A program made the translations under genes and the position numbers. Shown one piece after another: positions 9,758 through 43,296 of a stretch of DNA of 64,000 nt. Position 1 is the first letter of the stretch, and each line of letters opens with the position of its first letter. This DNA is from Solidesulfovibrio carbinolicus (lineage in GTDB: Bacteria > Desulfobacterota > Desulfovibrionia > Desulfovibrionales > Desulfovibrionaceae). Under the pieces are notes generated by a model, which saw only the letters and a list, made by a program, of their open reading frames with translations, was not told the origin of the DNA and did no database searches. The stretch lies in contig NZ_CP026538.1 in assembly GCF_004135975.1 (NCBI RefSeq), positions 620,001-684,000 on the forward strand, given 5' to 3'.

Positions 9758-9896
9758 GGCGTTTCTCCGGGGTAAAGGGTTGGGCTTGGGCGGGAAGCCC
9801 GCCATACAGGAATGCCTAGCAGAAAAACGGCGAAAAGAAACCTGTTGGCGGGACAAGAGTAAGACGGCCCGGAACAAGGGGCAAGGAGGAAGGGAC

Positions 9897-10370
9897 ATGC
9901 CTGGACGGATGCTGTGGCTGACTTTGGCGATGGCGGCGACCTTGGCCGGCTGTTTCGCGCCCAGGGCCGAGACGGAAGCCCGCAATTGGCGGCCCGACGG
10001 GCCGGGCGGGCGCACCCTGTCCCAACTCCTGGCCCTGTCGCCGGGCATCGCGGCCACCACCTGGGAGTCCTTTGACGGCCCAGGCGGCGCAACGGAGGTG
10101 CGGCTGACGGCGGAATACGCCGTGCCGCGCCTGGCCGGGGCCTGTCCCGCGCCGCCGGCCGGCCAGGAAACGGCGGCCCGGGGGTTTCTCGTCCTCGGGC
10201 TGACGGTGACCCCGGCCGGGCAGGTGGACTTTGCCTACGCCGAGGCCCGGGGCTACGCCGCCTCGGGAGCCTGGCAATCGACGCCGCTGGACATCGGCGT
10301 CATCGCCGATCTGGTGGCCCGGGCAACGGTGCTGCCCTGCGCGGCCCTGGCCTTGCCCAAGGGATCGTGA
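9897..10370 (+). CDS. Lipoprotein of unknown function
   Basis: 157 residues with a type II signal peptide: MPGRMLWLTLAMAATLAGCF, lipobox LAGC with Cys19 as lipidation site. The mature part contains an extended region LVLGLTVTPAGQVDFAYAEA, which loosely resembles a TonB-C-like beta fold, but I do not claim this. The ribosome-binding site AAGGAGGAAGGG is very strong. That same stretch is perfectly complementary over 9 nt to the CU-rich 5' end of the candidate small RNA at 41522. It ends 88 nt before the motA stop, with a bidirectional terminator between. Confidence 0.75.
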   Translation: MPGRMLWLTLAMAATLAGCFAPRAETEARNWRPDGPGGRTLSQLLALSPGIAATTWESFDGPGGATEVRLTAEYAVPRLAGACPAPPAGQETAARGFLVLGLTVTPAGQVDFAYAEARGYAASGAWQSTPLDIGVIADLVARATVLPCAALALPKGS

Positions 10371-40776: not shown

Positions 40777-41021
40777 GCGAAGAGGTTGTCCCCCAGGACA
40801 TCGAGGCCCAGGTGGCGGCCATTGAGGCCGAGATGGCCGAGTTGCTGGAGCGCAAGGCGGCGGCGGAAAAGCGCGCCCGGGATTTCATGGCCGCCGAGGA
40901 CCACAAGGCCGGCGTGAGCCATGCCCAGGAGATTTTCGCGGCCAAGCAGGAAAAGCTCATGCTCGACACCGAGTGGGAGATCGCCCGGCGCAAGAAGAAC
41001 CGCCTGCTCATGCCCCAGTAG
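40773..41021 (+). CDS. Small coiled-coil protein co-translated with the dehydrogenase
   Basis: 82 residues, highly charged and Glu/Ala/Lys-rich, predicted to be one long helix or coiled coil (AQVAAIEAEMAELLERKAAA). It begins with ATGA overlapping the dehydrogenase stop and has GGAGG 8 nt before the ATG. No known family. The coupling suggests it may bind or stabilise the dehydrogenase; this is inference from position only. Confidence 0.72.
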   Translation: MSEEVVPQDIEAQVAAIEAEMAELLERKAAAEKRARDFMAAEDHKAGVSHAQEIFAAKQEKLMLDTEWEIARRKKNRLLMPQ

Positions 41022-41494
41022 CGGCGCGTTGTCGCGGCAGCCGGGTCCGGGCTTTCAAACACCAGTCAAGAAGCCAAAGCCGGCAAAGCGGCGTGTTGTG
41101 GCGGCAGCACGTCCGGGCTTCGCCGTAGGCCGGATCGGCGCGGCCGCCCCGGACTCCACCGCCGGCCCTCGCCCGGAAAGGGCAAAGGGCGGAGAGGGGA
41201 CCGGGACAAGGATTTGTACCGCCCCATGAGGCGCGGCCCCGGCCATGGCCGTCTCTGGGCCGCCACTTGCCTTCAGAAGCCGAAAGAGTCTTGGATAATA
41301 TCCCGATTTTACATAGTTTTTTGACAACTGGTCGGCCGGGTACAAATTCCTGGCCCGTTTATCCGGGGCTTGGCGGCCGGGGTAAAAGTTTTTGCACCGA
41401 TCAGAGCCCCAAAACGGCCTGTTGCGGGCTGAACTGCCGGGATGAATTTTTCGCATAGACTGATTTTATTGGAGAAGATGATTTTGTTTAGGCG

Positions 41495-41511
41495 TTGGCA
41501 CGGCTGTTGCT
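41495..41511 (+). promoter_or_regulatory. Sigma-54 (RpoN) promoter
   Basis: TTGGCACGGCTGTTGCT matches the -24/-12 consensus TGGCACG-N4-TTGCW at every defined position. It predicts transcription from about 41522. No protein gene lies downstream on this strand for 1.7 kb. Confidence 0.85.
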
Positions 41512-41521
41512 AATAGAGAAT

Positions 41522-41591
41522 CATCCTTCCTCCGAAAAGGACATTTCTGAGAGCGGCTCCGGGATGGCGACCTGGAGCCGCTCTCATTTTT
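41522..41591 (+). ncRNA. Candidate sigma-54-dependent small RNA, about 70 nt
   Basis: Bounded by the sigma-54 promoter and an intrinsic terminator. The 5' end is unpaired and CU-rich: CATCCTTCCTCCG (41522-41534), complementary to Shine-Dalgarno sequences. The 3' part is a terminator hairpin: 12-bp perfect stem 41549-41560 with 41574-41585, extendable to 15 bp with one G-U, loop ATGGCGA, then ATTTTT. There is no start codon with a usable frame. The strong ribosome-binding site of the lipoprotein gene at 9897 (GGAGGAAGG) pairs perfectly over 9 nt. The layout is that of an Hfq-type or antisense trans-acting regulator produced under RpoN control. Confidence 0.65.
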
Positions 41592-41621
41592 GGGGCCGAG
41601 TCGTTGGGCGGCTTGGGCAAC

Positions 41622-41656
41622 AAAAAACGCCGTCCCGGCTTGGGGCGGCGTTTTTT
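41622..41656. terminator. Bidirectional terminator
   Basis: 11-bp stem (41622-41632 with 41646-41656), extendable through TCCC/GGGG to about 15 bp, flanked by A6 and T7. It ends the leftward gene 41677-41985 and insulates the small RNA. Confidence 0.9.
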
Positions 41657-41676
41657 TGTGGGCCGGGGCAGAGCGG

Positions 41677-41985
41677 CTATTTGGCCGGGAACTTGTTGCG
41701 GCAGGCGCGTTCCACGCCCCAGGCCTGTTCGTCGCGCTCGGCCGCGCCGGTGTTGGCGATGATGCAGTCCAGGGCGGCCTGGGTGAAGTCCTTGCACTCC
41801 GACGCCTTGGGGTCCTGGTAGCGGCATTTGCAGGCCCGGCGCATGATCATGCCGCCGTCCTGGGAGAGGGCTTTTTTGGCGTAGAGCATGGCGCAGTCGG
41901 GATAGTTTTTGGGAGCAAACGATTGGGCCGCCGCCGGCAAAGCCGTCAACAGCATGAGGATAACAGCCGAAAACAAGCGAATCAT
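41677..41985 (-). CDS. Small exported six-cysteine protein
   Basis: 102 residues. Signal peptide about 1-20 (FSAVILMLLTALPAAA, cleavage after AAA). The mature part has Cys31, Cys52, Cys54, Cys64, Cys74 and Cys95, enough for three disulfides or a metal site; Cys52-x-Cys54 is flanked by RRACKCRYQDP. I do not recognise the family. AAGGAGAG precedes the ATG and a terminator follows the stop, so it is a real gene. A periplasmic location is likely. Confidence 0.78.
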   Translation of the reverse strand: MIRLFSAVILMLLTALPAAAQSFAPKNYPDCAMLYAKKALSQDGGMIMRRACKCRYQDPKASECKDFTQAALDCIIANTGAAERDEQAWGVERACRNKFPAK

Positions 41986-43174: not shown

Positions 43175-43296
43175 GTGCGGGGCTTGGCAAAGCCTCGGCT
43201 GCCTGTCAAGACCGGGTATGGCCGGCCGGGGCGGTTTGGTGTAGAGGACGAAACCGCGTTGCCCCGCCTCATGGGCCGGGCCGCATGAGGATTGCC

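Follow-up and report, generated by a model that had tools for sequence, protein, structure and literature searches.

A conserved unit in a Solidesulfovibrio genome, one member of an order-wide family, most likely encodes a small RNA (sRNA) that represses porin synthesis. We estimate a probability of about 80% that it specifies a trans-acting ~70-nt RNA, transcribed by sigma-54 RNA polymerase with an enhancer-binding protein (EBP), whose 5' end pairs with the Shine-Dalgarno sequence of porin mRNAs and lowers porin synthesis. The promoter, the fold, their conservation, the family and a concerted change of the RNA 5' end and the porin ribosome-binding sites (RBSs) can all be read from the genomes. 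The first bases of the sRNA change in step with the porin RBSs, which makes porin down-regulation its most likely role. The window, i.e., the whole stretch of DNA analysed, comprises 64 kb (C1:620001-684000) of the 4.69-Mb genome G000, and the features discussed are located in Table 1.

Table 1 Features of the sRNA locus and a possible target site in the 64-kb window.
Feature	Position	Strand	Basis or remark
Possible second, distal enhancer-like site GGACAAGGATTTGTAC	41204..41219	.	9/10 fixed bases
Candidate enhancer-binding-protein site GTAAAAGTTTTTGCAC	41382..41397	.	matches GTACA-N6-TGTAC at 8/10 fixed bases, 113 bp upstream of TTGGC
Sigma-54 promoter	41495..41511	+	exact TTGGCACG-N4-TTGCT, 0 mismatches
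Predicted small RNA, ~70 nt	41522..41591	+	start from promoter and onset of conservation; end from hairpin and T-run
5' pairing region CATCCTTCCTCC	41522..41533	+	complementary to porin RBSs
Weak 5' hairpin (UCCUU with AAGGA), CCUCC in loop	41524..41541	+	fold prediction
Terminator-like hairpin, 16-bp stem, 7-nt loop, five T's	41548..41591	+	terminator scan; covarying stem pairs
GGAGGAAGG before lipoprotein start 9897	9885..9893	+	possible target only; ORF start lipoprotein-like

The exact promoter pattern TTGGCACG-N4-TTGCT occurs once in the window, where ~0.002 matches are expected by calculation for 13 fixed bases on the two strands of 64 kb. One further site has two mismatches, and shuffled sequences contain 1.77 sites at two mismatches or fewer. 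The -24 GG (41497-41498) and -12 GC (41509-41510) put the predicted +1 at C41522, the first base of CATCCTTCCTCC; this is the right distance from the promoter, and the spacing is the same in 20 of 20 loci of the genus. The predicted RNA reads CAUCCUUCCUCCGAAAAGGACAUUUC, followed by a 16-bp hairpin and five U's (the hairpin proper spans 41548-41586 and the T's run to 41591). Its 70 nt fold at -37.1 kcal/mol, compared to -19.7 (sd 3.0) for shuffled versions (z = -5.9), and none of 200 shuffles is equally stable. Since shuffles of the 400-base region around the hairpin contain 1.2 comparable terminator-like sites, the terminator assignment leans on stem strength and conservation. The five pairs of the weak 5' hairpin are all invariant in the 13 copy-1 sequences described below, which neither supports nor contradicts their pairing, and this hairpin is absent from the predicted folds of several other family members. 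A pseudoknot between CATCC in the 5' part and GGATG in the loop was considered and dropped, as the loops of two loci (L008 and L014) read GGTTG while the 5' side is unchanged.

A sequence-only reading of the window had described the exact -24/-12 promoter, a start near 41522, a CU-rich 5' end and the hairpin, and both its coordinates and its description are right. It had also called the locus noncoding; open reading frames (ORFs) in the mechanical list do overlap the spot (e.g., 41495-41821), and none was judged to be a gene. The closest plus-strand genes in that list were read as ending at 41021 and starting at 43285, in agreement with the reported lack of a same-strand protein gene for 1.7 kb downstream. 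The accompanying remark that RpoN promoters usually drive protein genes is reasonable in general, but sigma-54-dependent noncoding RNAs have been published, according to the accessible parts of these reports, for Vibrio (Qrr; PMC10162802) and for Desulfovibrio vulgaris (four RNAs; PMC4641369). Between the sRNA and the next small minus-strand ORF, inspection by eye showed another hairpin (41626-41658), bordered by A's and T's, that is likely a two-way terminator; it was not among the sites returned by the terminator scan.

BLAST searches with 141 bases recovered the locus in 13 of 59 genomes, namely the genome of the window and 12 further Solidesulfovibrio members out of 13; the single genus genome without a match (G002) is 69% complete. 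The resulting 20 loci consist of 13 copies of the original (copy 1, 13 genomes) and seven of a paralogue (copy 2), with a locus cut by a contig end (L151) excluded from every count. The promoter bases TGGC and TGCT are invariant in all 20, ATCCTTCCTCC is present in all 20 at a constant distance from the promoter, and the bases immediately 5' of the predicted start are variable. Recurrence of promoter, first bases and loop at fixed spacing in both copies is, judging from these alignments, more than chance. Copy 2 has the promoter, 5' end and loop of copy 1 and a different stem sequence, suggesting that the stem is maintained as a structure. Four pairs of the copy-1 stem are changed on both sides, giving 11 such cells versus 2.9 in shuffles; two other measures do not favour a structure, namely the pair count itself (4 versus 2.4), which 70 of 500 shuffles equal or exceed, and the count of additional pair types, for which 482 of 500 do so. 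In the copy-2 stem two pairs are changed on both sides (three cells versus 0.7 in shuffles). T-runs are short in several orthologues. The hairpin top GGGATGGCGACC (window 41561-41572) is identical in both genus copies despite their different stems, and tops such as GGGTGGCTCCC and GGGCGGTCC are found in other genera.

The unit extends far beyond the genus. A first covariance model (R1) had a poor automatic structure and was unused for searching. A second (R2), comprising promoter and RNA, matched 111 of the 288 family genomes searched, in 27 of 44 genera (E <= 0.001). All 14 genus genomes were positive; each has two to six matches, of which some fall on the opposite strand of a hairpin already matched, and the genome of the window itself carries three members. 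The promoter-hairpin pair, which the sequence-only reading had proposed to look for in close relatives, is therefore present throughout the genus, and its term "orphan" has to give way to a multicopy family spread over the order. A third model (R3), rebuilt from 61 matches at 48 loci, matched 253 of the 348 Desulfovibrionales genomes searched (E <= 1e-4; 50 of 59 genera, all six families seen), a count that includes by construction the genomes from which its training sequences were drawn. All members printed show the promoter and a long hairpin, their 5' ends are rich in pyrimidines, and adjacent or tandem copies are found in several genomes. Scanning the genome collection by pattern returned 30 contigs, of which 23 are Desulfovibrio-like, delta-proteobacterial or matched to genomes studied and seven are unrelated, about the number calculated for chance (7.5). 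When the family model was run on 18 of these, all 11 Desulfovibrio-like contigs tested scored at least 31 bits; the seven unrelated contigs gave two weak partial matches (17.7 and 13.5 bits, the maximum being 17.7). Rfam release 15 gave no match above the gathering cut-off in the window; the best of the weak matches over the locus, all taken as chance, was BjrC68 (19.9 bits versus a cut-off of 39). The locus very probably makes a small RNA of a large family.

Comparison of the genomes points to the major outer-membrane porins (NCBIfam NF033939, DESULF_POR1; 405 bits, cut-off 250) as the best-supported targets, ahead of the lipoprotein gene at 9897. The sequence GGAGGAAGGAT occurs eight times in the genome of the window, twice in sRNA genes and six times as a sense site; two of the six are the RBSs of paralogous porins, one is the RBS of an ABC-F ATPase and three were read as non-RBS. 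Across the 14 genus genomes the pattern is found at 69 places, sRNA genes counted, compared to four for the reversed pattern. Among 68 porin starts examined in the genus, 34 have GGAGGAAGG and 48 have GAGGAAGG, and 10 of the 20 lacking the latter have GGAGGAGGG, which could still pair with one G-U; these frequencies are weak alone because the sequence is a good Shine-Dalgarno. The porin regions were 100 of at least 103, with five additional starts from loci among the matches listed. Among the same matches, that to one porin paralogue crosses a single in-frame stop in the genome of the window (C1:2054669-2056084, TGA) and in G005 (C2:2182536-2183945, TAG). Either these copies are possibly in decay, or the matched region extends past the true start.

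The general claim that the 5' end could pair with RBSs is thus borne out by the porins. The specific candidate offered with it, the lipoprotein gene, does have the 9-nt match GGAGGAAGG, the single site in the window besides the antisense of the sRNA itself. Its case as a target consists of that one match, and the comparative evidence favours the porins. The ABC-F-type ATPase, in which GGAGGAAGGAT lies immediately 5' of the ATG (L029, C1:2772604-2775614 of the same genome), is a possible further target.

Across 22 genera, the longest uninterrupted complementarity of the sRNA 5' end (26 nt) to the start regions of porins encoded in the same genome has a mean of 11.86 nt and a maximum of 19. When sRNA and porin partners are permuted the mean is 8.37 nt (sd 0.42), and none of 200,000 permutations reaches 11.86; shuffled letters give 5.83. 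Permuted partners share as much as 8.4 nt because all of the sequences are Shine-Dalgarno-like. Genomes with a wrong porin start (G034) or with porin matches partial at the start (G305 and G213) were excluded from this test. Contiguous matches include 19 nt in G081 (CTGCAAAACAAAGAAGGAT), 17 in G061 (CAGCAAAGAAAGGAAGG), 16 in G083 (AACGAAGGAAGGAAAG), 15 in G190 (GCAAAAGAAAGAAGG), 14 in G039, which belongs to another family (GCAAAAGGAGGAAA), and 13 in G028 (GCAAAAGCAATAG). Seven genera added after the hypothesis was formed gave 11.86 versus 8.37 nt, with two of 5,040 permutations as good. The congeners G059 and G061, whose sRNAs differ, match their own porins over 16 and 17 nt and each other's over 9 and 9. 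Duplex energies agree (-24.5 kcal/mol for own versus -20.6 for permuted partners; 1/100,000) in a set of 16 entries made up of 15 genera and G034, which is another genome from genus g22 and has the wrong porin start. In G285 the predicted duplex reaches 26 bp including G-U pairs (-39.2 kcal/mol).

Whole-genome searches with the longer matches, made irrespective of where porins lie, led to the same genes. The 15-mer GCAAAACAAAGAAGG is found at six places in G081 and G082 together, three sRNA genes and three porin RBSs, and the 13-mer from G028 at three places in G028 and G254, two sRNA genes and one porin RBS; the reversed 15-mer and 13-mer were found at no place in these searches. In G254 the 13-mer is present in the sRNA gene only, and in G081 the 15-mer precedes two of at least four porins among the matches listed. 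In several genomes the sRNA matches its own porins no better than it does those of others: G314 (6 nt), G029 (7), G184 and G309 (8), and G086, G198, G071, G021 and G312 (9). By energy, a non-porin stretch equals or exceeds the porin site in five of 11 genomes sampled (G083, G260, G198, G243, and G071), and in the remaining six the porin site ranks first among 752 to 1,653 windows. Energy against background windows was judged not decisive, and contiguous matching and whole-genome k-mers were preferred. At the level of sequence, the 5' end is able to pair with the porin translation-initiation region, which is the working criterion for regulators of the MicA/RybB type.

Alternatively, the RNA could be a general anti-Shine-Dalgarno RNA whose 5' end pairs with many strong RBSs (the lipoprotein at 9897, the ABC-F ATPase and the porins) and damps translation broadly. 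We consider this unlikely. In its own genus GGAGGAAGGAT is simply a good Shine-Dalgarno, present before the ABC-F ATPase and, as GGAGGAAGG, before the lipoprotein, and the non-porin stretches that at least match porin energies in 5/11 genomes are consistent with broad pairing as well. However, in other genera the matches do not stop at the Shine-Dalgarno but take in idiosyncratic sequence beyond it (GCAAAACAAAG, GCAAAAGCAATAG), which general blocking does not need, and these idiosyncratic stretches are confined in whole genomes to porins and sRNA genes. It is very unlikely that the main role is protein binding via the hairpin loop (GGGAUGGCGACC) or the 5' end, in the manner of CrcZ or CsrB, with porin complementarity secondary. 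Titration of a protein by an RNA has a precedent in CrcZ (PMC4063720), as far as the text available indicates, and the loop is near-invariant in both genus copies despite the stem difference. Between genera, though, loops vary whereas 5' ends follow the porin sites. Real pairing that activates porin translation or stabilises the mRNA is more improbable still; the predicted duplexes span the Shine-Dalgarno itself, and a duplex in this position is the usual geometry of repression. That the locus is no regulator at all, its promoter belonging to a longer transcript or standing by chance beside a terminator, is scarcely credible, since the unit, with weak T-runs in some orthologues, is kept at fixed spacing across the order, including tandem copies, and its stem covaries.

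Regulation of the promoter by an EBP is suggested by the region upstream. A palindrome GTACA-N6-TGTAC (score >= 8/10) is located 111-115 bp upstream of TTGGC in 27 of 28 genus copies, compared to 23 of 560 shuffled regions (copy-2 locus L021 excluded from the count), and upstream regions in many other genera hold similar motifs. The sole genus copy examined that lacks it (6/10) is L062, the third copy in the genome of the window, which may therefore respond to another activator; the translation start of an ORF ~1 kb downstream in that region (C1:768650-773000) reads as GNAT/autoinducer-synthase-like. The window as a whole holds 13 sites of this motif scoring >= 8 and four scoring >= 9, and a whole-genome scan of two genomes gave no excess over the reversed pattern. 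GAFTGA-type EBP signatures were found neither in the sRNA-locus flanks scanned nor in the window, in a scan run without a positive control. An AT-rich palindrome, GTAAAAAATTTTTTAC, is located ~120 bp upstream of where the best-matching porin begins, both in the genome of the window (C1:3107899-3107914) and in G005 (C2:1755460-1755475). This may be chance, or the porin may be under the same activator as the sRNA.

These elements can be combined into a mechanism of porin down-regulation. Sigma-54 polymerase would make the ~70-nt RNA when an EBP acts from the palindrome ~110 bp upstream of the promoter, and the long 3' hairpin would terminate transcription and protect the RNA. The unpaired or looped 5' end (CAUCCUUCCUCC) would then pair with the Shine-Dalgarno region of the major porin mRNAs, excluding ribosomes, so that less porin is made. 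Sibling RNAs, often multicopy, would act likewise across the Desulfovibrionales, and the stimulus is perhaps envelope or nutrient stress. Pairing may proceed independently of Hfq. The Hfq model (Pfam PF17209) has no match in the genome of the window and is positive in five of 14 control genomes, including Escherichia coli.

If this is correct, an unannotated 70-nt feature becomes a predicted regulon whose target can be named, in bacteria that matter for corrosion, metal chemistry and gut sulfide. Sigma-54 noncoding RNAs of the kind catalogued in D. vulgaris, listed without targets in the portions of the reports available, would gain a testable function. The family also provides a case of sRNA-target co-evolution that can be read over 22 genera. 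A further question that it poses is by what means extended sRNA-mRNA duplexes arise in a genome where Hfq is not found.

Sigma-54-dependent sRNAs have been described in the same order. In D. vulgaris Hildenborough, four sigma-54 noncoding RNAs are controlled by EBPs, one of them under DVU1419, labelled envelope stress (Kazakov 2015, PMC4641369), and the function of Dv_sRNA2 was stated to be unknown (Rajeev 2011, PMC3333781). They resemble the present family in order, promoter type and use of EBPs and differ in that targets are not given in the sections of those papers available. The words porin, sigma54 and RpoN are all absent from the available text of a 2024 survey of noncoding RNAs in Oleidesulfovibrio alaskensis (PMC11124144). 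Our literature search, which left most subscription journals aside, brought up neither a report of these RNAs nor one of porin control by sRNAs in Desulfovibrio.

Porin-controlling sRNAs and sigma-54 sRNAs are both kinds of regulator that are already known. To the extent that the literature search shows, what looks new is that the two are combined, apparently without Hfq, in so broad a family, and that the co-evolution is seen. Cuckoo and CcsR are anti-Shine-Dalgarno sRNAs of Alphaproteobacteria that present CCUCC-type motifs; their promoters and architecture are different, and they are not known to be related to the present family. The Qrr sRNAs, which are Hfq-dependent, are closer in organisation. 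They too are several siblings with sigma-54 promoters and EBPs, whereas they are different RNAs and their targets are quorum-sensing regulators, as far as the accessible text of two sources goes (PMC10162802, PMC2680268). NcS25 of Burkholderia cenocepacia is closer in target, as it represses the porin BCAL3473 with pairing predicted at its Shine-Dalgarno; an upstream sigma-54 motif was not found in the available part of that report, and the bacteria are unrelated (PMC10117139). In enterobacteria, MicA and RybB are sRNAs under an alternative sigma factor that reduce outer-membrane protein synthesis, according to the part of the source available (PMC1804206). As predicted for the family described here, the 5' part of the RNA pairs near the RBS; in contrast, their sigma factor is sigma-E rather than sigma-54 with its -24/-12 promoter, they act on another porin family, and no sequence relation is known. 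MicA and RybB are also Hfq-dependent, whereas Hfq was not found in the Solidesulfovibrio genome, the one in which it was looked for. We would give roughly even odds to the broader proposal that porins throughout the Desulfovibrionales are controlled by EBP- and sigma-54-dependent sibling sRNAs acting without Hfq, with 5' ends co-evolved with the porin RBSs, as an independently reached counterpart of the enterobacterial sigma-E/MicA/RybB arm.
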